64,000 nucleotides of DNA, taken from Prorocentrum cordatum. Its lineage: Eukaryota; Sar; Dinophyceae; Prorocentrales; Prorocentraceae. Below the pieces are notes generated by a model. It was not told the DNA's origin. It saw only the letters and a program-made list of their open reading frames with translations, and ran no database searches. The position numbers were made by a program, and so were the translations under genes. The first letter of the stretch is position 1; the number at the start of each line of letters is the position of its first letter. The DNA lies in assembly GCA_963575745.1 (NCBI GenBank), contig CAUYUJ010001384.1, forward strand, positions 1-64,000, read 5' to 3'. Of this stretch, positions 29,303 through 56,359 are shown piece after piece.

Positions 29303-30360
29303 TCCTAGCTCGACTTAAGTTGAGAAAACCGACAGCACCTACCAACATTCCAATTTATAGTGAATATTTTTTGACCTCTGAATGCGACAGGCGGACGCGT
29401 CTGATGTCTGCGAATCGACTCATGTCATTACCAGCCCTGCAGCCCCACTACAGCCCGAGTTAAGTGCAGAAAACCGACAGCACCTCTCAGGATGACTCGA
29501 ACAATACGAATAGTTTCGCGGACCTAGTTCGGGCAGCAGACAGAGTTCGGAGCTCTGGATTCGAAAGACGGACGCGCCTGATGTCTCCGAATCGATTCCA
29601 GTGATTACCAGCCATGGAGCCCCCCTACAGCCCGAGTTAAGTGGAGAGAACCGACAGCATCTCTCAAGATGAGTCGAACAATACGAATAGTCCCGCGATT
29701 CTAGATCGGGCAGCAGACCGAGTTCAGAGCTCTGGATTCGACAGACTGATCATTCTGAATCGGTTTCTGTAAATATCAGCTCTGTACCTGTCTACAGCTC
29801 GAGTTAAGTAGAAAAACGAAAGTTGCTGTCAAAATGACTCGAATAATACGAACAGGTTTGCGGACCTAGCTCGGCTAACAGACCGAGTTCAGACCTCTGG
29901 CTTCAACAGGCGAACGCGCCTAATCATTCTACATCGATTAGCTGTGCTTACCAGCTCTGTAGCTGTCCTGAAGCTCGAGTTATGTTCAGAAAACCATCAG
30001 CGCGTATCAAGAAAACTCAACGGCCAATCCCGCCACAGTGCTTTTCGATAGTAATATTCACCCGATCGAGCTGAGATCAAGATGGCGAGCGGAAATAAGA
30101 TCGAATATCACGGAAAAAATACTAGAGCTCTAACGAATGTTCAAATTTCGAGAACAAAATTTTCAACCGACCAAAAGTCAGCAAAAGTTCCGTCGGGATT
30201 TTTCTTGCCAACTAGCTCTCCAGCGCGCCGGAATTACTCTTAAGCTTCCATCAACTAGCTTAGGGAAGCTCTACGAGTCATCTTTTCTCTTTTTCGAGAA
30301 ATGCTTCCAGAAGCCCTCTCTTTTGATTCCGAGCACTCTTACGCGTGCTGGGAGCTCTTC
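29303..30360 (-). repeat. Inverted A block, L1 linker and B end
   Basis: Minus-strand A block: terminal segment (CCTACCAACATTCC), monomers, leader (about 30030-30220), L1 linker. A plus-strand B end (about 30280-30357, ACTCTTACGCGTGCTGGGAG) runs to the LINE junction. Confidence 0.72.
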
Positions 30361-33135
30361 CGCAACCCGATCAACATGGGTCTCTTGCTGGAGGCACGGT
30401 CTAGACTCAGGGAAGGACGGGCAACAGGTGCAGACGGGGTGACGTCATCGGTGCTCAAAGCATTGCCATGGGAAGCCCTCCGACACATACTTACCTTATT
30501 CCGTTTGCTGTATGATCAGAAACACGTTTCACCGAAGTCCTGGAGAGAGATCTTGGTATGCTTGATGCCTAAGAATCCCAAGGCTCGTGATTTTGAAGAA
30601 ACGCGGGCCCTTTCACTTCTTTCTCATTTTGGTAAGTGGTATAGCAGTTGTCTATGTGTACTTCTAGAGCACCGCGTTCGGCAGGCTGCACCGCCAGGTT
30701 GCAACTTATATGGCTTTATTGCGGGGCACAAATGTTATGAGGTCACGGCCCCCCTCAAACGTCTTGCTCAACACGGCGTTGTGTGGGGGAAGGAGGAGAG
30801 TCTTTATCTTGCAAGTGCTGATATTGAAAAGGCGTTTGACAATTTCACGGTGAGATGTGCAGCAGAGGCGCTTTTATTTCATCATGTCCATCCTGCCCTT
30901 GTGTATGCTGTCTTTGAGAGTTATGCTTGTAATACGGCAGAGATCAGCTTCCAACAGTGTTCTACGACCATCTCGTGGGATACTTGCATACGTACAGGTT
31001 CCTTGGAGGCGCCTTTGCTATTTGTTGCCCAGACACTTCGTATGCTTGCACCAGTGACGGCAGGTTGGAGGCAGTCTGGATACGGCGTCAGGCTCACTGA
31101 TGAGGCATCCAATCTCTTGGTCAACCACTGGTTGTGGGCAGACAATATTTTGCTGGCAGCAGCTTCCAGGCGAGAATTGACTCATATGCTCGAGGACTTG
31201 ACGGGGGTCCTCCACCGCTTCGGTTTCAACTGGAAAGCATCTTCGATGGAGTTCTTGGCTTGTGGCGTCCAAGGTCCATTGCAGGATATCCGCCTGCCGG
31301 TGCCGGGGCTCCTGCCTGCTGAGATGGGTAGGAGGCGTTCTCGTGGGGCTTCCCAGAGCGCCGCAGGCCCTTCGGAGGAGATGATAGTGAGGCAGGTGGA
31401 GAGGATGGAGGTTCTTGGCACGCTATTAGACGTACGATTTCAGGATCATGACGACATTAAGCACCGACTGGAGAAGGCACGGCGGGTCTTCATGAGTGAG
31501 ATTTCTTTTTACTCGTCGCCCGTGGTTCCGCTTCGTTGTAAGTTTCAGCGTTATGATAGCAGGGTCAGAAGTTGCTTTCTGTACGGTTTGGAGGGTGCGA
31601 CTCTGGATTCGAGTAGTCTCCAACAGATACATGCAGCTGAAGGCAACTTCTTGTCCACCATGAGACGTCTCAAAAAGAAGATCACGGAGTCCTGGGGAGA
31701 GTACTGGGGCAGGAGGATTAAAGGTGGTCGTCGCTTATTGAGGTGGGCCCGTAAGCCTTCGATGGTCCAGCTCGCCCTTCATCGCCAGTGGCTCTTCGCC
31801 AAACATGTGGTGAGCACGATCCATGAGGAACATAGTCGGGTGGATGAGGACGCACTCAGTCAGGGCATTCTTTATCATGAGCCACGAGATCCTGATATTT
31901 TTGGTGGTTCGCAGCGTTCCTTGGAGTTATCGGTTCCCTCGCCTACCCCGAATGCCAGACAGCTCAATAGTTCGTGTAGGAGAAAGGCACAGAGCGCATC
32001 TTCCATGGAAAATAGGTCAGTTCGCAGACGTATATCGGAGAACACGGCACAGGAGCATCATGATTCACAACATGTACATGAGCCTGTTCGTAAGCGGGTA
32101 CGCCATACCTATGCACGGGCGGAGGAAGGAGGATTGCCCACTGCCAGTATGCAGAGCGCCTTGACGATGATGCACGCGTCGGGGGAGTGGACTGAGCAGC
32201 GTGACGTGCATATTAGAGCTCTCCCTGGGGGCCGAAGGTTTACTAGAGCCTGTCGTCACCGAGTCTTGACGGGACTCAGGCCTTGGTTCGAGGTCTTCGA
32301 GCACACGCACGGGGTTCATTGGGATCGCACGATGGTCTGGAATGAAACTGGCTGGCGTTCTTTCCTGGTGGGTACCCTGGCCGCTCTGGACTTGGATGAT
32401 CTTCTCGAGTTCTGCCTTCTTCGGGATCCCTTCACGGGTGAGTTCAAGCAGGAGGAGGAGGGGGAGGAAAAGTCTGAGGAGCAACAACGACGGGAAAATG
32501 AACGGGTGGCGAAACGACTGGCCGCGATAAATGATGATGAAACCACTTGGCGTGGGGAAGGGGGTGGATGCGGCTTGGAGCTCCGTGGGGATAGCCAGTG
32601 TGTTGTGCGCTGGCTTAATGGAAGATATCGCTGTCATAATGAAGTATACCGCCGCACGATCAAGGGTATGCAGAACCGCCTTCACAGAATGAGTGAGGAC
32701 CATCATCTTGTCACGGCTGAAGTGGGAAGGGATATGTGGCAATGGGTGTATAGGGAGGGCAACGATGAGGCGGACCATGAGACACATCTTGCACGTGAGG
32801 GTAAAGTAACTTCTGATGTTCGTTGGAATCATAACACTCTTTGTCATATTAGATCGGGTCATTATATTGTTCGTGCACTTAGAGGAGCTTTTGACGGTGG
32901 GCGGTGTGAACGTGGCACTTCGTGTGGCTGGGTTATGGATGCTTATCTTGTTCCCTCTCTTCCTCCTCACCAGCTTCCCCCTGGACTTGTGCAGGGCGGA
33001 TGGCACCCTGGAGTTGGCCGCAGAGGTTTCATGATCCCTAGCCACTGCACGATCACACAGGCTGAGTTGGCAGCTGCACATTCGCTTCTCAATGGCATTG
33101 CCGAGATGTGTATACACGTACAGCTTGGCCGGTGA
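30301..33135 (+). CDS. LINE ORF2: reverse transcriptase with permuted RNase H
   Basis: Intact 944-residue frame. The first ~20 residues come from the flanking B repeat; the LINE part starts near 30361, so the endonuclease domain is lost by 5' truncation. RT motifs: GADG at 43-46, ADIEKAFD at 173-180, TGSLEAPLLF at 232-241 and WADN at 279-282, where D280 is the first palm-C aspartate and N replaces the second. An acidic run near 715-730 (E/K-rich) precedes the RNase H part. Its motifs come in the order GDSQ (D764), GNDEAD (D825), FDGG (D865), QAELAAA (E922). Canonical RNase H is D-E-D-D in the order DGG, AEL, DSQ, NEXAD, so the halves are swapped. Expected role: copying element RNA at the target site. 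It lacks ORF1 and EN but its catalytic frame is undamaged. Confidence 0.9.
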   Translation: MLPEALSFDSEHSYACWELFRNPINMGLLLEARSRLREGRATGADGVTSSVLKALPWEALRHILTLFRLLYDQKHVSPKSWREILVCLMPKNPKARDFEETRALSLLSHFGKWYSSCLCVLLEHRVRQAAPPGCNLYGFIAGHKCYEVTAPLKRLAQHGVVWGKEESLYLASADIEKAFDNFTVRCAAEALLFHHVHPALVYAVFESYACNTAEISFQQCSTTISWDTCIRTGSLEAPLLFVAQTLRMLAPVTAGWRQSGYGVRLTDEASNLLVNHWLWADNILLAAASRRELTHMLEDLTGVLHRFGFNWKASSMEFLACGVQGPLQDIRLPVPGLLPAEMGRRRSRGASQSAAGPSEEMIVRQVERMEVLGTLLDVRFQDHDDIKHRLEKARRVFMSEISFYSSPVVPLRCKFQRYDSRVRSCFLYGLEGATLDSSSLQQIHAAEGNFLSTMRRLKKKITESWGEYWGRRIKGGRRLLRWARKPSMVQLALHRQWLFAKHVVSTIHEEHSRVDEDALSQGILYHEPRDPDIFGGSQRSLELSVPSPTPNARQLNSSCRRKAQSASSMENRSVRRRISENTAQEHHDSQHVHEPVRKRVRHTYARAEEGGLPTASMQSALTMMHASGEWTEQRDVHIRALPGGRRFTRACRHRVLTGLRPWFEVFEHTHGVHWDRTMVWNETGWRSFLVGTLAALDLDDLLEFCLLRDPFTGEFKQEEEGEEKSEEQQRRENERVAKRLAAINDDETTWRGEGGGCGLELRGDSQCVVRWLNGRYRCHNEVYRRTIKGMQNRLHRMSEDHHLVTAEVGRDMWQWVYREGNDEADHETHLAREGKVTSDVRWNHNTLCHIRSGHYIVRALRGAFDGGRCERGTSCGWVMDAYLVPSLPPHQLPPGLVQGGWHPGVGRRGFMIPSHCTITQAELAAAHSLLNGIAEMCIHVQLGR

Positions 33136-33370
33136 TTGTTTGTGTACTATATCTGCACAGCTCCGCTGTTGTAAGATACATGCTTAGCCCCACTGTTTCT
33201 TTGATGTGTGTATATTCCTGTGCAGCTACGCTGCTGTATCATATCTGCACAGCTACGCTGACTTGTATATCGCACAGCTCCGCTGTTAGTGCTTAGGTTG
33301 CCTGTAGGTAATCCTACCGCTGGCCCTGCCCCCCTAAGGGGGCTCGAATCGGGCCCCGCAGACCGCAGAC
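30361..33370 (+). mobile_element. 5'-truncated LINE element A
   Basis: The left junction follows GGGAGCTCT, the outer arm of an H hairpin. The right junction is at CCAGGTT, hairpin loop sequence, after which the flank jumps to A-block sequence (AAAATATTCACTATAAGTCGG). 3' region: four CAGCNNCGCTG motifs (33155, 33221, 33247, 33272), a GCCCCC/GGGGGC stem-loop (33328-33343), then CCGCAGA tail units. No clear TSD. Confidence 0.82.
33136..33370 (+). promoter_or_regulatory. LINE A 3' UTR with repeated stem-loops
   Basis: Four copies of GCACAGCTCCGCTG or near variants, each a CAGC...GCTG mini-hairpin, then a 6-bp GC stem with CTAA loop at 33328-33343 and two CCGCAGA units at the end. The arrangement resembles 3' recognition structures of stringent LINEs. 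A role in RT recognition is inference. Confidence 0.6.
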
Positions 33371-33446
33371 CAGGTTAAAAATATTCACTATAAGTCGGAA
33401 TGTTGGTAGGTGCTGTCGGTTTTCTCAACTTAAGTCGAGCTAGGAA
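33371..33446 (+). repeat. A block terminal segment
   Basis: ATAAGTCGGAATGTTGGTAGG ... AGTCGAGCTAGGAAGC. Together with the next hairpin it is an inverted copy of 29247-29378. Confidence 0.75.
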
Positions 33447-43650: not shown

Positions 43651-44055
43651 CTTCCACGCGTGAGAGTGCTCAGAGTCGAGAAGATAGCTTCTGGAGTTCT
43701 CAAAAAAATAATATTCTTTTTTTTCATCTCGAAAAGTTGGTTTCGCCAAGTGTTTTAATAGTAAAAGTGCGCCTACAGAGCTCATATCAAGACGCAGAGG
43801 CCCTCACAGTCGTCTACAGGTGCGAAAAATCTGGTTTCTGAAAATGAATTCTCAAATATCTTTCAAATCTGTCAAGATGAGCTGAGAGGAATTCGGCGCA
43901 GGGTAGAGCTAGTTGGCAGACCCGCCGTTAAGAGACAATGTGACGACTCGGCCTGGGTTTTCCTATTCTTGTGCAACATTCCAAAATTCGTTTCAGAACT
44001 GGTATTTTTGCCATCTGTAGTGGGTTATGCCGCGTCTGCCAGTTAAATTATCAGG
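43651..44055. repeat. Inverted B block and C block start
   Basis: Minus-strand B unit (GTGAGAGTGCTCAGAGTCGAG ... TCTACAGGTGCGAAAAATCTGG), then a plus-strand C-like unit from about 43870 that is cut by the LINE at TTATCAGGT. Confidence 0.68.
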
Positions 44056-44828
44056 TGGCATCTTCTTTAGTGGGTTCCTGCGTTTGTGTTTCATTGCACA
44101 TCGTGAGGGAAGAAGGTACTGCATCTGTACCTTCCAGGGAATGCTCTTTGTTTCTGTCTACTTGCCGCATCGTGAGGCTGTAGATAAGACACGCAGTGAG
44201 CAGTTAGAAGCGTTTGGGATGTATCAAGACATCTTGACTAACATGACGGGTGATGTCATGAAGCCAAAACATAAACATCGTATTACGAACGTCGTTGTCT
44301 GTTTGGATGCGAATGTTGAAGTTATACCGAGTATCACGATTGATGGTGTACGTGTATCGGGGGGGGGTCTCCTTGTCGCCCATCCTCGTGCCCGGGCTGA
44401 TGTTCTGCGTGATTTGTATGCCTGCTCCCTTGCCACTTGTATGGCTACGCTCAAGCTCTCTCTGGCTAACACGTTTGGGGATCGTATCACTTCTTGCCGT
44501 GTCGGGGGAAAATCTTGGACTATCTTGCTGTACCGAAATCGTGGTCGTGCTCACCTGTGGTCTTGGTTATTCCCGCGTGCTTGTCGGAACCTGCCTGCCG
44601 GATATTGAGATGCTTTGGAGTGATCGCAAGCTGTTATCGTCGCGCATTCCGTCTCCCGTGCAGTTAGGCGGACAGCGCCCCGAATTCCCGAGTAAATGGA
44701 GGGTGGTTGCCGGGAGGGAGGTTGACCAGGCGCGTCTGTTTGATCGCACTGTGCTCCGATGGTTTCGAGAGGTCTGTACCTTCTGTTTGCCCGCGTTATC
44801 GTGTTTGCTCTTGTGGACCGCCAGTTAG
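44056..44828 (+). pseudogene. LINE endonuclease (APE/EEP-type) remnant
   Basis: The frame 44027-44608 reads LFVSVYLPH, then VVVCLDANVEV where EEP nucleases have a GDFNA-like motif, then LANTFGDRI. It shifts near 44520 to a frame reading RVLVGTCLP and LWSDRKLLSSRIP, the region of the SDH motif, with D-R in place of D-H. The family cleaves the target strand to prime reverse transcription. The N-terminal part is missing. Frameshift and motif changes indicate it is dead. Compare NTFGQRG...LDYVGVSRRL...LSDHACIV in element C. Confidence 0.7.
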
Positions 44829-45114
44829 ATGAAGGGCGATGCTGTGGCGAGCCAATCGTGCCATGTGTTCGAGGGCCCGTCGAATCTCTTCCCGAGTTGT
44901 CTGAGGATCAGGTTCGGTTTCGTTTGGGGCATGACCAGCGTCACAGAGATTTGAAGCGGGGCTCATGGAGGAGGAGGAGGAGTTCAAAAGGAGTAGTAGG
45001 AGGTGGACGGCTATCAGAAGGTCGTATCGTAGGCAGCTTATTATATTTCGTCATCGAGAAGTTCCTGGTCACGCACATGGAGGTGGGATACTGACGGAGG
45101 ATCGTTCTAAATGA

Positions 45115-46765
45115 GTGGAGGGTCTATCTCAGCATGCCAAGTCAAAGTACGATGATGAGAAGATGAGGAGCCCGAATAACAATTGTCTTGAAGAGCTTCG
45201 TGTCCGTGCTGATTGGGCTGCCTTTTTGGGTTCCAGTGGGCCTCGAGAGTGTCCGATCTCTATGGCTGTGCTTCTTCGTGCTCGTTCTAGGCTCAAGGAG
45301 GGTCGTGCTGTGGGAGCAGATGGAATGCCTTGCACTGCTCTCAAAGCCTTGGCATGGTCTTCTCTTCGTGTGATATTATCGTCGTTCCAGTTACTTTATC
45401 GTCGTGGAGTGTCATCGCCAGACTCCTGGCGCCAGTTACGTGTAAGCCTCATGTTGAAGGATCCCAAGTTTCGCCGTTTTGGTGAGTCTCGTGCATCGCA
45501 GTTCTCAGCATATTCAGTTAGTGGTACCCGCGCTGCCTCACCCTGTTATTGGACGAGCATGTTCGTCGGGCCCTGCCATGTACGGGCTGCAATCTCTATG
45601 GTTTCTGCTCTGGCCACCGTTGTCACGAGATCATGGCGGGCCTCAAGGTATTGGCTCGTCACTCGAGGCTTTGGGGTAAAGATCAGAACGTCTTCATTGC
45701 GAGTCTTGGTGTGGGCAGGCGTTTGCCCACCTAACGATTCCCCGAGGTAGTGCAAGCTTGCAATGGTTACAAGTTGATGATGAGTTGATCTTCGCTCTTA
45801 TGGAAGGTGCAGTTACTAATGCCGCTGGGTTTCAATTTCAAGAGGTTCGTTCTTATCCGATTCCATGGGATTCGTGCATCCGTACTGGGTCTCTGGAGGG
45901 CCCACCGTTGTGGAATGCGCAGTGTATCAATATGTGTGGGCCTGTATATTAGAATTGGGAGCGTCTGGGAACAGGCCTTGTCTTGTCGGCGGAGGCTGGA
46001 GGCATCTGTGTGTCTCGCTTTGTATGGGCAGACAACGTCATTCTGGTGGCGGGCCCCCTCCCCATGTTGACCTCGATGATCGTCGAACTAAGCCAGCCCC
46101 TGTATTTGCATGGTTTCCATGGGAAAACACCCAGCCTCGATTTCATGAATGTTGCCAGTGATGATACTGACCCCCTGGTTGTCCATTCTTCCTCTTCTCC
46201 GGGATCCGCGAGAAATTGCCCAAGCTCAGCCCTGGTGTTCAAGCGCGTCTCGGCGCTGAAGATCTTGGGCACCGTTATTGACAGAAGTTTTACTGATAAT
46301 GAGGATATTCGCCACCGAATGCGATGTGCCGTTGGAGCCTTCTGGGAAGACAAATCTTATTATCAATCGCGTCTTATGTCTATGCATTCGAAGATTCGCC
46401 GCTTTGACTCGAGAGTTCGTAGCAAGTTCTTGTATGGTTTGGAAGGGGCTTCTATTGATGCCAATGCGTTGCGGTACATTCACAAGGAGGAAGGGAATAT
46501 GCTGTCTCTAATGGTCTGGCGTAACAAGCGAACAGATGAGAGCTGGAGTATGTTCCTATCCCGTCTATTCTGTCGTGGTCGCCAGGCTTTGTTTCGTGAA
46601 CGGAAGGCTAGCCTTGTGCAGTTGTTTTTGTATAAGCAGTGGTTGTGGGCGAAGGATTTCGTGCCATTTTTTCTTTCTCCTGTCTCATCCCCGTCATCTG
46701 CTGCTGCTGCGTCACCTCCTATGCTTTCTCAATATGTCTTTGGAGCTTTGCCTATACCGCTGTAA
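45115..46765 (+). pseudogene. LINE reverse transcriptase, frameshifted
   Basis: Pieces in different frames: 45115-45500 (LLRARSRLKEGRAVGADGMPC, the finger region with GADG), 45549-45734 (CTGCNLYGFCSGHRCHEI), 45758-45952 (DSCIRTGSLEGPPLWNAQC) and 45983-46765 (FVWADNVILVAG, then the thumb region ending at PIPL). Near 45700 the palm segment that should read D.xKAFD has become SLGVGxxxxxAHLT, so catalytic Asp is lost. Same WADN motif as in elements A and C. Confidence 0.78.
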
Positions 46766-47698
46766 GGGAAGGAGGATCAGAGCGTCTCGGTTGTGGGTGG
46801 GTCGCCGTCGTTTGGTGATGTGACCGTGGAGGATGGTCGCAAGAGAAATCGCAGGCAGGAGATTGGTGAGATGCAGAGGCAGGCTAAACGTGTCCGTGGG
46901 ACTTTGTTTCAAAACACTGCTCGTGTGCGTGATGCCTTTGAGCCGTCCCGTGCTGTGCCACCGTCTGAGAAGAGACGGAGGCTGCGTTGGTCCTCCGAGC
47001 CAGTGGCCCCATGTGTGTCCAGCCTTGCTCAGTCTCGCCTGCTGATGTTGCGCGCTTCGGGTTCGTGGACACGGGCTCGTGACACCCTGATCCAACTTGC
47101 TGGGACCAAGGAGGCTCGGGCGTATACCCGCTTGAGGGGCCAGAGTACAAATCTGAAGGGGCCCACGCCGTGGCACCTTATCTTCGAGATGTTGGGGGGC
47201 GAACTCTGGCAGTCTAACCTGAGTTGGTGTGAGCACGGCTGGTTATCTTTTATCCGTGGTGTTTGTGGTCTCCTTGACTTGCCTGATATCCTGCAGTGGT
47301 GTGTACTTAAAGACCCCCATCCCTGGAATCCTAAGGAGAAGGACGATGAGGAGGTGAACATGACGGAGGAGCAGAAGGCTAAATCATATGATAAGTTAGC
47401 TCAGAGACTTGCTAAAGTATTCTTGGATGAATCTTCCTGGGAGAGTGTACCTGGGCATCTTGCGGTTGAGTTGAAGGGTGACTCGCAATGTGTGATCCGA
47501 TGGTTGGAGGGGCTTTATTGCACGGGGAACGTAGGCTATGCTTCCAAGGTGGCGGAAATGCAGAACCTGTTATGTGACCTTTCCGTCTCATGTCTTTTCC
47601 GTCCTCCTGAGTCTGGTCGCAATATCTTTAAGTGGGTGTATAGGGAAAGAAACGCTGAGGCTGAGGACATGACTTGGAACGCTCGTATTGGTAATTGA
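46766..47698 (+). pseudogene. LINE ORF2 connector and first RNase H half
   Basis: Frame open from about 46793. Connector sequence, then KGDSQCVIRWLEG (Asp codon at 47480) and YRERNAEAEDM. In the second motif the aligned Asp is Glu (codon 47663), unlike GNDEAD and GNERAD in the other two copies. An in-frame TGA at 47696 ends the frame. Spacing between the two acidic positions is 61 codons, as in element A. Confidence 0.72.
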
Positions 47699-48055
47699 GG
47701 TCTCTGGCATGACGACGACTTTTTGAAACTTATCAAGTTGAACGCAGTTATGATCGACTGTATCCGTGGTTCTTCCGACGGTGGTCGTTCCCAACATGGT
47801 GTCGGGTCTGGCTGGGTACTTGATGTGAGGGTTGCTTCTTTCGCTCGCAATCTTCTTCCTCCCTCTTCCTCTATCGTCTGTGGCTGGCGCCGTGTTGCCT
47901 CTGAGGCCTTCCTTCTCCCCTCCTCCTGCACTATCACGTCGGCTGAGCTGTCTGCCGCCCATCGGCTCCTCTCTGCAGGAGTGCTTGTGATTCTGCAAAA
48001 GTCGGGCTTCATAAGCATGTGTAGTTCGTGGTCTGGACGTGAGCACCGTCCTGCC
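47699..48055 (+). pseudogene. LINE ORF2 second RNase H half
   Basis: Same frame as the preceding segment after the TGA. Reads RGSSDGGRSQHGVGSGWVL (Asp codon 47777) and CTITSAELSAAHRLL (Glu codon 47945), 56 codons apart (57 in element A). These are the strand-1 and helix-A motifs that normally open an RNase H domain; here they come last. Confidence 0.72.
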
Positions 48056-48080
48056 ATGACTCTACGCAAACGCGAAAAAA

Positions 48081-48112
48081 CCAAGGTTGACGGTTTACCG
48101 CCGGCTTCCAGT
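48081..48112 (+). repeat. H hairpin 38, right half at LINE B 3' junction
   Basis: CCAAGGTTGACGGTTTACCGCCGGCTTCCAGT follows the A-rich tail directly. The left half is absent. Confidence 0.82.
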
Positions 48113-51230: not shown

Positions 51231-51251
51231 GAAGCTCTGCGAGTTCCCGGC
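51231..51251 (+). repeat. H hairpin 40, left part
   Basis: GGAAGCTCTGCGAGTTCCCGG, including the first stem bases, cut by LINE C. The right part is at 54928. Confidence 0.82.
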
Positions 51252-51260
51252 AACCCGTAT

Positions 51261-52475
51261 ATGACTCAAACAAAACGTGGTGCACGTAAAACAAGACCTC
51301 ATAGGGTTGTCTCGGGCTTCGAAACTCGACGGGCGCCTAGGCTGCAATCTATGAGGAGGGCCCTACTGGACTTCTGCGGGCTCTGGGGCATAAGGATGGA
51401 GAACACATTTGGGCAGAGGGGGGTTACTTTCAAATCAAGTACGGGGGTGGAGAAGGTACTCGACTATGTTGGTGTCAGCCGTCGTTTACACAGGCAGGAG
51501 ATCACTGTAGGCTGGATGCTGCCTGCGGAAGTGTGCCACGCCTGGACGGAGCACCCATGCAGCAGATACGAGCGTGCGCTGTCTGACCACGCTTGCATAG
51601 TTGTTCGCTTGTCTTGTGTACCGTCTGCGAAGAGACGGACCCAGCCTGCTCGAAAGTTCATCTACTTGCAACCGGTGTCGCAGCTTGAGTTTGCGAAGAA
51701 CATGGACGATCGGGGCAGTCGTTGCCGTGCATTGTGCCAGGGAAATGCCGACCCAGAGGATCGACAGGAGATGTTGGATATGCTGGGACCTGACCTCATA
51801 AAGGCCGCCGAGGAGACCCCCCAGAAGGATACCAATCCCAGGAATAATGTGCCAAAGAAATCCGAGATCCACTGGGCCGCCCAGGAAAGTAAACGCGAAG
51901 CACTTCGTCGTGGGGATAGAGAGGAGGCCAAACGGTGCTCAAAGATAGTGAGGAGAGAAAGGAGGAGGCTGGAGGCGAGAGTACAGAGGTGGAGGACGGA
52001 GATGAACACGAGGAGGAGGAGGAGGGCCAAGACGGAGACGTGGATCCTTGCCAACGGGATGGAGTCCCAGAACCGCGAGGAGTGGGGGGACGAGATATTG
52101 GGGCACATGAAGTCTAAGGTGGAGGACCCCGAGGCCAGGGAGGTGACCCTTCGTGAGCTGCAGTCGCTGCGTGGTCTATGTTCGGGAAGCGGATCTTCAG
52201 AGGTGTTCTCGATGTCGCTCCTGCTGCGGGCGAGGGCGAAGCTGTCCACGGGAAAGGCCCCAGGTCCCGACAACGTGACTGTCACGATGTTGAAACAGCT
52301 CTCGTGGGCATCTGTTCGACGTGTTCTGGTGAGCTTCCAAGGTGTGTGTTCCCGCAAGTTATGTTGCCCCGACAGTCGGCGTCAACTAGCTGCCACGCTC
52401 ATGCCTAAAGAAATGGACATACAACATTTGACAGATACACGTGTACTATGTTTACAGTCGTGTCTTATGAAATGA
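51261..52475 (+). pseudogene. LINE ORF2 part 1: endonuclease end and RT fingers
   Basis: From the first ATG inside the element (51261). NTFGQRGVTF, EKVLDYVGVSRRL and LSDHACIVVRL match the last part of APE-type LINE endonucleases: the (I/L)DY-V-SRR strand and the SDH catalytic motif. A basic, coiled-coil-like R/E-rich connector follows, then LLLRARAKLSTGKAPGPDNVT (RT finger region; GPDN in place of GADG). The frame stops at LQSCLMK-TGA, where element A reads GKWYSSC, so TGG (Trp) has probably mutated to TGA. Confidence 0.82.
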
Positions 52476-52478
52476 TAC

Positions 52479-54191
52479 ATGACATGTATTGTGATGATGA
52501 TTGAGAAGAGGATTGAGGAGCACCGACACTATGTATGCCTGTACGGATTCAGATCGGGACGAAAAACATCGGAAATCACCAGCGTTGCCAAAATTCTCAG
52601 CCAGCACTCCGCTGTCTGGGGCAAAGGAGACAGTTTGTGGCTTGCCAACCTCGATATCTTACAAGCATTCGATAATGTCACTCCGTGCCTCGCCATGCGC
52701 TGTCTTCGTGCTCTTGACATACCAGCTGATCTCATTGTGGCGTTGATTGAACCCATGATTGATAACCAGTGCGTGGCCAGCTTCGAGGGCATCGAGGCAT
52801 CTTCAGCTGTCTATTGGGACAAATCTATTCGAACGGGAGGAGTGGAGGGGCCGATGATTTTTCTTGCAGTATCTATTGCACTCTGGAGAGATGTGATTGA
52901 CAGGTGGAGGCAGGATACGCAGTACGGTATCAAGTTGGAAGATGATGAGCGCATGTTCAACGGTGAGCGTATGACCCACAGTTTCTGGGCAGATAATCTT
53001 CTGTTGTATGCGAAGACCCGCTCTGACCTCGAGTTGATGGTGCGTGACATGAGTATCCCGCTGATGAATGCAGGAATGAGCTGGAAGCCGAAATCCTTGA
53101 TGTATATTTACTTTGGTGCGCCGCCTGGCATCCCGCCGTCCCCCGAGCAGGATATCCGTGTGCTGGTGCCGTCTTATGACGCTGCTCTTGGGGCCCGAGA
53201 AGTGGTCCTGCCGCGTGTTCAGTCGTTTGAGATCCTGGGAGCCACTCTGGAGGAGACCTGGAAGGACCACTCGGATTCAAAGGCCATGCTCCAGAAAGCC
53301 CAGAAGGTATTCTTTGGGGAAATCGCTTATTATCGCTGCTCTGGTATTGATTTGGCTGAGAGATTTTCTCGTTATCAAGCTAAAGTGATTGCTGCATTAT
53401 TATTCAACTGTGAGGGCAGAACGCCCGACTATTCCACCATCGCTGCTGTTCGCTCTTTTGAAGGCAGATGCCTGGCGTTAATGTCAGGTCTACACAAGCG
53501 GAGAACTGAAGGATGGTCTGAGTTTCAACGTAGGCGATACAAAGTTGGACGGCAGAGTTTTGTTGAGCTTGGATTCCGAAGTGCGGTGCAGATATGGATA
53601 TTTCGTTGTTGGGATTGGGCCAAGGATGTCTCAGTTGCTGCAAGTATTCGTATGAGGAGGTACACAACACACACAGTGGAGGAGGAGGGGGAGACGGTAC
53701 CAAATCGGCGTCAGAGGAAAACTCGGGCGATGGCGGTGGCGGCGGCCTCTCATGTATCCCAGATCTCCCAGATGTCGAGTGGCGGTCGTCGGCGGACAAC
53801 GGGTGATCAGCCTGCCATACCTGAGGAGTCGGACATGTCACGTGAATGGATGGTATCTAGGCTGGCCATGCTACATGGAAGGGGGAAGTGGACGGAACAT
53901 CGGGACACATGTATTCTAGCGTTGCCTGCAAAAGATAGGAAGCATCTCACACGCATGAGCATGGGTGCACCTGCCCGTGGACATACTGTGTGGGACTGGT
54001 GTTTGTGCGATCTCTTTGGTTGTGAGTGGTACCTCTCGTTCGACAGCTCCGCTGGTTCCCGAGAGAAATATTGCAAACATTTGCTGACTGCGATTGGCAT
54101 GCAACACTTGTTCGACTTGTTTGTTTTACCCAGGCCACCTGGTGTGAGGCACGCGAAGGCGGAGGAGGAGGGGGAGGAGAGAGATGAATGA
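52479..54191 (+). pseudogene. LINE ORF2 part 2: RT palm and thumb, connector
   Basis: Same frame as part 1 after the TGA; 570 residues from the next ATG. YGFRSGRKTSEI (22-33), NLDILQAFDNV (57-67, with D59 and D65), IRTGGVEGPMIF (117-128), FWADNLLLYA (169-178). Connector with a WTEHRDTCILALP segment, which matches WTEQRDVHIRALP in element A. Ends in an E-rich run and TGA that overlaps the next frame's ATG by 8 nt (ATGAATGA). Confidence 0.86.
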
Positions 54192-54660
54192 GAGGATTAG
54201 CAAACGTATTGCCGCTAATTATGAGAATGAAACGGAGTGGAGGTGTGAGAATATTGAGCGTCTTGGGATGGAGATCTTGGGAGATAGTAAGACGGTTGTT
54301 AACTGGATGTGTGGTGAGTGGCAGATTCGCAACAAGCAGTATGTACGACTGGTGGGAACACTACAGAATACGGTATCGATGCTGTCTGGATGGGGACTGA
54401 CCTCACCTGCATCGGGACAGAATCTGTATAAGCATTTCTTTCGTGAGGGTAATGAACGTGCGGATAGATTGTCGTGGGAGGCCAGAGGTGGCCAAACTAT
54501 TACTCGCTGGTTTGCATATGATCAGTTCCTCAGTACTCGTAAGACTGCTCTCCGTGGTGCATTCGATGGGGGTGTCAGTAATGAAGGATGTGGAGGTGGG
54601 TGGTGGCTTCAGATTGGCGTTGTAGGTAGGGGTTCCAGCGTGCAGGTTGATTTTCCCATC

Positions 54661-54693
<33 letters not shown>

Positions 54694-54852
54694 TCCTGCA
54701 TCAGCTCGCAGAGCTTCCATTGGCACGATGTGGCCGAGGAGGCGATGAGCTTGCCTCCAGGTAGCACGGTAACCTGCTGTGAACTAGCTGCCTGCGCTGC
54801 CCTGACGAGAGCTGCTGCTAAGGTGGCGTGCGCTCTGCTGCAACCTACCTAA
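54184..54852 (+). pseudogene. LINE ORF2 part 3: permuted RNase H
   Basis: 222 residues in a shifted frame; in element A the same region is fused to the RT. LGDSKTVVNWMCG (D34), FFREGNERADRLSWEA (D94), LRGAFDGGVSNEGCGGGWW (D128), STVTCCELAACAAL (E200). All four acidic residues are kept, in the order D(S) - D(ExAD) - D(GG) - E. A run of about 12 serines encoded by a TCC microsatellite (54661-54690) sits between D128 and E200. Ends at TAA 54850. Confidence 0.85.
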
Positions 54853-54927
54853 GATGGTGGGGGTTCAGTTGCACTGCTCCGCCGATTCGGATTCGGATTC
54901 TAGTGGCGGACCGCAAACCGCAAAAAA

Positions 54928-54960
54928 AACCAAGGTTGACGGTTTACCGCCGGCCCCCAG
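54928..54960 (+). repeat. H hairpin 40, right part
   Basis: ACCAAGGTTGACGGTTTACC then GCCGGCCCCCAG; right stem strand TTACCGCCGG intact. Confidence 0.84.
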
Positions 54961-56359
54961 TTTTGCATAATTTTGCTAGGTTTTAAATTCGATTTCTCGA
55001 AATTTGAGAATTCGTTAGGGCTCTAGTATTTATTCTCTTCGGATTCGATCTTATTCCCGCTCGCCATCTTAATCTCAGGTCGTTCGGGCACATATTACTG
55101 CCAGAAAGCATCCAGGCGGGGTCGGCCGTTTAGTGTCATCTTGGCAGGTGTTGTCGGTTTTCTGTATTTAAGCCGAGCTGTAGAAGAGCTACAGAGCTGG
55201 CAGGCGCACCTCATATATCTCGAACCATCAGGCGCGTTAGTCTCAAGTATCTAGACGTCCGAGCTCGGTCTGCTACCAGAGCTGGGTCCGAACAACTATT
55301 CGTGCTCTGCTATTTTCTTGAGATGATGATGAGTTTCTCGATGTAACTCGAGCTGCAGAACTGCTACAGAGCTGTCAGGCACAGCAATCGGAAGATAATC
55401 ATCATATTCGCCAGTCTCAAGTATCTAGAACATTTTGTTCGAGATGATGCTGGTTTTCTTGATGTAACACGAGCTGCAGATGAGCTGCATAGCTGTTTGT
55501 CGCAGCAATCGGAAGGACATCATCAGACGCGCTAGTCTTGCGTATCTAGATGCCCGAACTCGGTCTGCTACAGTCTCGAGCATCTAGATGCCCAAACTCG
55601 GTCTGCTACCAGAGCTGGGTCAGAAAACAATTATTCGTACCCTGCTAATTTTGAAAGAAACTATCATGACCTTCCTGAGTTATATCGAGCTGCAGATAAG
55701 CTACAGCGCTGTTTGGCAGAGCATTCGGAAGGAAATTATCAGGAGCGCTCTAGTCTCAATACCTAGATGCCCGAACTCGGTCTGCTTCCAGAGTTGGAAC
55801 CGAAAAAACTATTTCTACTGTTTTTTGGTCAGAGATGACGATGCCTTTCGTGATGTAATTCGATCTGCAGTTGAGATTAGAGCTGTTCGGCGCAGCCATT
55901 GGACGAAAATCGCCAGGAACGTTCGTTACAAGTATCTACATCTTTGAGATTGGTCTGCTACCAGAGCTGGAACCAACTTACCTATTCGTACTCCTGCTCC
56001 TAGTCCTCCTCCTCATTACCTTCCTTCTCCTCTTCCTTCTTCATCTGCTTCTTCTCCGCTTTTCCCTCCTGCTCCTTCCTCCTCCTTCTCCTCATCTTCC
56101 TCATCTTCATCATCATCAGCGTCCCTTTTCTCCCTCTCCACCCTTCCCCCTCCTGCTCGTCATCCTCCTCTTCCTCCTCTCCCTCCTCCTCCTCCGCCTG
56201 CTCCTTTTTCTCCTCCTCCTTCACTTGCTCAGCCTCCTCGATCTCCTTCTCCTCCTCACTCCTTCTTCTCCTTCGCGTCCTCCTCCCTGAAACCGCGCCC
56301 TCGCGCGCGCGGAATGCGAGATTGCCGCGCCCGCGTTGCGTTCATGCATGCGGAGGCAG
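54961..56359 (+). repeat. D unit 3
   Basis: Begins TTTTGCATAATTTTGCTAGG as in D unit 2. Leader, six D monomers (GTATCTAGATGCCC near 55540 and 55580, one shortened), pyrimidine tract 55985-56290, then CGCGGAATGCGAGATTGCCG and a hairpin. Confidence 0.77.
55985..56290 (+). repeat. Pyrimidine tract of D unit 3
   Basis: C/T-rich, about 300 bp, interrupted by a few GA steps (ATCTTCATCATCATCAGCG near 56105). Confidence 0.83.

Follow-up and report, generated by a model that had tools for sequence, protein, structure and literature searches.

A probable circularly permuted, archaeal-like RNase H at the C-terminus of LINE proteins in Prorocentrum cordatum

The question raised by a long interspersed nuclear element (LINE) in Prorocentrum cordatum is whether an RNase H can be encoded with its two halves exchanged. 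This copy, element A, lies on the plus strand of a 64,000-nucleotide stretch of contig CAUYUJ010001384.1 (assembly GCA_963575745.1; hereafter the window), where the open reading frame (ORF) 30301-33135 encodes a reverse transcriptase (RT) and, behind it, four acidic motifs. These are GDSQ (residue 763; D764 at nt 32590-32592), GNDEAD (residue 820; D825 at 32773-32775), FDGG (residue 864; D865 at 32893-32895) and QAELAAA (residue 920; E922 at 33064-33066). A first-pass annotation made from the sequence alone had read them as an RNase H opened between helix A and strand 4, and the translation bears out both their positions and the order DSQ, NxxAD, DGG, AEL. We conclude, with a probability of about 0.86, that the C-terminal domain of this LINE is a circularly permuted, archaeal-like type 1 RNase H that has kept its fold and catalytic residues and most likely still cuts. 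The proposed cut between helix A and strand 4 is supported by the predicted fold, by a rotation scan and by the conserved order.

The same arrangement recurs within the window. In element B (domain P0005, 54184-54852, plus strand) the motif order was confirmed to be identical, with GDSK, GNERAD, FDGG and CELAA contributing D34 (54283-54285), D94 (54463-54465), D128 (54565-54567) and E200 (54781-54783). A third, decayed element C, absent from the first-pass annotation, has the order as well: its remnant at 47405-47989 (plus strand) reads GDSQ, NAEAED, SDGG and SAEL, with an altered NxxAD motif and one in-frame stop. The claim that each half keeps the spacing of the family holds for D764 to D825, which are 61 residues apart. 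It does not hold for D865 to E922, separated by 57 residues compared with 38 between D10 and E48 of Escherichia coli RNase HI; an insert that separates beta2 from beta3 accounts for the extra length.

The AlphaFold2 model of the domain in element A (P0006, residues 739-944; 32515-33132, plus strand) is RNase H-like and in permuted order. Predicted as a single chain, it has a mean predicted local distance difference test (pLDDT) score of 90.1 and a predicted template modelling (pTM) score of 0.89, and its elements follow each other as beta4-alphaB/D-beta5-alphaE-linker-beta1-beta2-beta3-alphaA. Each carboxylate falls in the element where we would expect it from RNase HI. The canonical second half (beta4, alphaB/alphaD, beta5, alphaE) comes first, at 32569-32796, as delimited by hhalign and by model elements E19-25 to H80-94. 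The canonical first half (beta1, beta2, beta3, alphaA) comes last, at 32863-33120, as delimited by the model of this half and its matches to 3u3g and 3aly. Between them lies the new connection from the old C-terminus to the old N-terminus (32797-32862), at the rotation-scan maximum. It joins the termini as proposed, although with about 22 residues (833-854) rather than about 30, and the model gives it a short helix (844-851; H106-113 of P0006).

The two halves of the domain match opposite ends of solved RNases H. In the whole-model VIA rows, 3u3g, 4e19 and 2ehg are matched by model residues 8-106 up to the C-terminal end of those chains, and by sequence the profile aligns to 3aly residues 73-131 and 3u3g residues 70-134. 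The C-terminal half (32827-33132), folded alone, reaches a pLDDT of 90.8 and has E. coli RNase HI at Foldseek rank 1; by our own count, RNase H domains make up 23 of its 50 VIA rows, and it covers their N-terminal part (1-70 of 3u3g, 1-70 of 3aly, 3-69 of 4h8k and 1-62 of 1wsj). No full-length match to the whole model was found in the fold search, whose top rows are unrelated (PelC, TolC, actin-capping protein), as expected if aligners follow chain order. The BFVD structure search returned nothing at or below 0.001, its best row being an annotated Pithovirus RNase H (E 3.3e-3, root-mean-square deviation 14).

Sequence profiles lead in the same direction. Canonical sequences were drawn from plasmid records of archaeal-like RNases HI (10 of 34 records; L044-L053) and from RVT_3 domains of the P. 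cordatum genome itself (11 of 30 loci). Against the combined canonical profile, the permuted profile in its native order aligned over 59 columns (canonical 64-125) with an E-value of 4.9e-10, compared with 115 columns (4-125) and 4.0e-11 after de-permutation, and 4.2e-12 when the beta2-beta3 insert was also left out. The half before the cut (DSQ...AD) aligned by hhalign to canonical RNases HI at E 1.4e-10. When the profile was rotated in six-column steps with the insert dropped, the score rose from 61.8 in the native order to a plateau of 72.6-73.1, reached with the cut between alphaE and beta1. At the linker cut it was 73.1, covering canonical columns 4-125 of 128, and none of 200 shuffles of the first half attained this value (maximum 68.5). 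A sequence search of solved structures improved from 0.0043 in the native order to 0.00063 after de-permutation, with 5 and 6 rows respectively, all of them RNases H as judged by names or titles.

The expected carboxylates and a diagnostic arginine place the domain among archaeal-like type 1 enzymes. The D-E-D-D set of type 1 RNases H (D865, E922, D764 and D825) is present and nearly invariant, and the fold is present in the prediction. The chain order beta1-beta2-beta3-alphaA-beta4...alphaE is absent, which makes the domain a permuted variant rather than an ordinary member of the type. In the sections available of PMC4640811, an arginine in place of the histidine of D-E-D-H-D marks archaeal-like RNases H; in element A this position is R818 (nt 32752-32754, plus strand), within the canonical second half. 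Archaeal-like RNases HI (2ehg and 3aly of Sulfolobus tokodaii, LC11 RNase H1, Pfam RVT_3) share the four carboxylates and the arginine, and are the best RNase H matches of the permuted domain by both sequence and structure. Compared with them, the permuted domain has swapped halves, an insert between beta2 and beta3, and a score under the Pfam cut-off.

Archaeal-like RNases H are familiar in elements of this kind. The same sections of PMC4640811 describe them in plant L1 LINEs (citing Smyshlyaev et al. 2013) and in the oomycete Utopia, likewise non-long-terminal-repeat retrotransposons with an arginine at the histidine position. There the residues are listed as D-E-D-H/R-D and permutation goes unmentioned, whereas the domain described here is permuted and C-terminal. 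Dinoflagellate retrotransposons with another unusual domain, the DNMT-carrying LINEs of Symbiodinium (PMC5890265), include an RNase_H Pfam domain in a figure legend, and the portions of that paper at hand do not mention permutation.

The same genome also contains sister LINEs (L055 and L072), which likewise combine an RT with an archaeal-like RNase H (by eye, H-V-R-R at the arginine position). Theirs is a canonical RVT_3 (Pfam 3.5e-21 and 3.5e-13) that lies ahead of RVT_1 and is not C-terminal. Within the ORF parts analysed, RVT_3 occupies residues 501-622 and RVT_1 746-970 in L055, and 501-626 and 744-971 in L072. In these and others among L054-L083, the canonical RNase H stands between '(S/E)DGVV.EML' and the start of RVT_1. 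By eye it looks like an insertion inside the N-terminal part of the RT, which would be an unusual position.

No second, canonical RNase H was seen beside the permuted one. Pfam finds none in ORF 30301-33135 or in the full-length ORFs of the three families described below; on the former (P0001) it reports RVT_1 alone (residues 98-313, E 9.4e-08; 30592-31239, plus strand), and in element B RVT_3 stays under the cut-off at 0.11. The missing call in families A, B and D does not reflect a general failure of detection, because canonical RVT_3 is readily detected in this genome: 80 matches were obtained (610 candidates, 150 scored), the best spanning nearly the full profile. PF00075 gave 150 matches (2607 candidates, 150 scored). 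Two other placements of the missing halves were considered and rejected. Residues ~600-760, upstream of DSQ, contain no DGG/AEL pair by eye, and no second half was seen beyond the stop when three frames were read downstream of elements A and B.

Relatives were also found in other sources. The RNase H region of P0001, used as a query, found three long proteins of 858-1399 residues at 60-62% identity, and the resulting four-sequence profile (A2) found 24 further proteins with E up to 0.01 in ENA, JGI, EukProt and MMETSP, many of them fragments. A structure alignment (A3) combined 22 of the 24 relatives (P0025 and P0030 were left out) with P0006 and P0005, giving 24 sequences. D764 is kept in all 15 rows that have a residue there, R818 in 23 of 23, and D825 in 23 of 24 (E in P0028). 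D865 is kept in 18 of 21; in the three exceptions (P0013, P0021, P0027) the position falls at a fragment end. E922 is kept in 17 of 18, where the exception (P0018) is again terminal and the glutamate of P0012 lies in a doubtful tail. The permuted order is conserved in these proteins and in full-length ORFs of three families of the P. cordatum genome. Searches beyond eukaryotes gave 25 pattern matches in prokaryote genomes and 16 in viral contigs, none of which tblastn confirmed. A protein search with the RT region, aimed at sister LINEs, found the same three proteins and nothing further.

Some of the relatives deserve comment in their own right. P0021, P0022, P0024, P0027 and P0030 are labelled Pyramimonas sp. 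(EukProt), a green alga, which may reflect dinoflagellate contamination or transfer. The last ~120 residues of P0025 are, by eye, nearly equal to element B. Given that P0025 comes from MMETSP, a collection of transcriptomes, the family is probably transcribed. P0004 (1399 residues) is 99.7% identical to P0003 over residues 411-1399, and its residues 1-410 cannot be aligned to the other ORFs; it is possibly a 5'-truncated copy joined to other sequence.

Many copies with an open domain exist in the P. cordatum genome, which was searched over 4,128,499,153 bases in 21,875 contigs. In these searches first-look candidates are not counted copies, and scoring covered the best candidates. With P0001, the best 48 of 18,126 candidates were scored; all 48 match at 97-100% identity and span the domain, 42 are stop-free, and an open frame of 1422 residues encloses many of them. 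With the element B domain, all of the best 150 of 32,488 candidates span the domain without a stop, and a full-length family B copy has a frame of 1393 residues. A search with P0016, a relative from a metagenome, returned 126 matches from 5603 candidates (124 scored); they fall into an older family E (65-82% identity, short pieces included) and family D (40-45%), many of the latter carrying a frame of 1412 residues.

Full-length ORFs of families A, B and D (L007, L038 and L043) share one plan: an endonuclease-like region, the RT, a middle region, the permuted RNase H and the stop. They are ~1390-1422 residues long, and the stop follows the AEL glutamate by 20-22 residues. RVT_1 is above the Pfam cut-off in A and B and scores 23.9 bits in D, under the 29.6 needed. 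Pfam Exo_endo_phos is unreported in all three, and reaches 0.002, below the cut-off, in the sister LINE L072; WNVR...SDH motifs, seen by eye in A, B and D, may be those of an APE-type (EEP) endonuclease. Between families A, B and D the domain shows 31-41% identity and the RT 33-38%, so the two are of roughly equal age and under similar constraint.

Selection on the domain is comparable to that on the upstream part. The pooled ratio of nonsynonymous to synonymous substitution rates (dN/dS) in family A is 0.167 in the domain and 0.135 upstream in the same 8 copies, and in family B it is 0.162 in the domain (12 copies). In the old family E the values are 0.320 in the domain and 0.324 in 130 upstream codons (12 copies, 4 with stops in the domain). 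Copies were chosen best-first by protein score, which lowers dN, so it is safer to rely on family A, where domain and upstream part are compared like for like.

Several results weigh against a permuted RNase H. Rotation against the plasmid set of bacterial and archaeal RNases HI alone gains just 1.2 in score, though coverage crosses the junction; the peak became clear once the canonical LINE domains were included. The first half alone, compared with bacterial and archaeal RNases HI, does not rise above 100 shuffles. Pfam RVT_3 values for the native and de-permuted domains of five proteins are 0.0074-0.087 or absent, with little or no gain from de-permutation. The lack of sequence significance of the first half, together with the new linker between the halves, would suit a protein in which DSQ...AD is a truncated RNase H second half and DGG...AEL is an unrelated beta-hairpin/helix module with motifs arisen by chance. 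We regard such a chimera as very improbable, given that the best structural rows of the half-model are rich in RNase H N-terminal parts, that D865 and E922 are conserved across families, that placing the first half in canonical order lifts the score from 61.8 to 73.1, beyond every shuffle, and that a single folding unit is predicted (pTM 0.89). High confidence in a single chain also makes a domain-swapped dimer improbable, in which the second half of one protein would pair with the first half of another, even though the order of the halves would suit swapping and a linker of ~22 residues is by itself compatible with it.

A permuted domain that folds and is catalytically dead, serving in binding or scaffolding, is unlikely in our view. 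The activity of the domain is a prediction, and element C has a changed NxxAD motif; but element C is a decayed copy, and the four carboxylates, like the arginine, hardly vary even where identity drops to ~30%. Each of the three window copies is truncated or broken, as they would be if the order were an assembly artefact or had arisen by recent rearrangement in a small number of dead copies. We give this almost no credence: of the best candidates that were scored, all 48 for A and all 150 for B span the domain, 42 and 150 of them free of stops, and the same order is found in other sources and in three families at 31-41% identity. Assembly error in particular is refuted by the genome matches and by the proteins from other sources.

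We therefore return to a circularly permuted RNase H. Quite probably the permutation of RNase HI is natural and catalytically active, is the hallmark of an ancient, very successful LINE lineage, and has been overlooked by standard domain annotation. The domain most likely cuts the RNA strand of RNA:DNA hybrids, since both the fold and the catalytic residues appear to be kept. In the proposed scheme, the chain would have been opened after helix A and ahead of strand 4, with a linker bridging the old termini, giving beta4...alphaE-linker-beta1...alphaA-stop. After target-primed synthesis of the first strand at a nick, the RNase H would remove the template RNA of the hybrid, the role assumed for RNase H in other LINEs, and the cDNA would thereby be freed for second-strand synthesis. 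As a guess, the simplest route to such a gene would begin with a tandem duplication, after which the outer halves of the two RNase H copies were lost; no intermediate was seen, and no search aimed at one was made.

Few folds have received as much attention in enzymology and in work on protein folding as RNase H. In the open-licence literature we came across no description of a retroelement with a permuted RNase H, in a search that left engineered permutants outside its scope. In the passages available, papers that join circular permutation and RNase HI treat other permutations, and in the excerpt at hand of PMC5408684 'circularly permuted' refers to a scaffold; the main text of a survey of the RNase H-like superfamily (PMC3985635) contains neither 'permut' nor 'circular'. 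Retained in families with about one third of their residues in common, a natural permutant would be a ready-made experiment on the robustness of a fold and on how retroelements build their domains. It may also serve as a test case for the origin of natural circular permutations, because relatives in canonical order reside in the same genome. Profiles that depend on order may wrongly call RNase H absent from retroelements, since Pfam calls the RT and no RNase H in these ORFs.

The three window elements, all on the plus strand, differ in preservation. Element A (30348-33376) is a 5'-truncated copy, 98.1% identical by blastn over 3030 bp to the full-length L007, and ends ~244 nt past its coding part. 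Its 944-residue ORF is a truncated copy joined to the flank, the first ~16 codons being flanking DNA that by chance supplies an upstream ATG. Element B (51248-54961), likewise 5'-truncated, is 95.4% identical over 3726 bp to the full-length L038; its frame is broken ahead of the domain, with tblastn pieces at 51249-54161 and 54178-54849. Element C (44042-48104), identified by tblastn and translation, is an older copy with frame changes and stops, whose 3' boundary was set at the repeat motif after the coding part. Its nearest of the three families is D, with 42% across the RT and RNase H. All 8 family A copies examined have a common 3' end. Rfam gave no match at gathering scores on the 64-kb window.

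Further observations concern the long ORFs and the element ends. RT motif C, where F/YxDD is expected, reads WADN in the open-frame families (residues 279-282 of P0001; 757, 770 and 775 in the full ORFs of A, B and D) and, by eye, WSDN in the sister LINEs. In the long frames (L007:16-4281, L038:459-4637, L043:487-4722) there is no ATG before the first endonuclease-like strand. Each frame opens after a stop and has its first methionine at codon 22, 49 and 15, respectively, so that translation may start at a non-ATG codon, via a frameshift or from a trans-spliced transcript. The motif GGTTGACGGTTNACCGCCGG occurs at 35 window sites with at most 2 mismatches (e.g., 33475, 48085 and 54934; 0 in 100 shuffles). 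It stands directly after elements B and C, with a close match after 6 of 8 family A copies, and represents either a target that the elements prefer or a 3' tail common to them.
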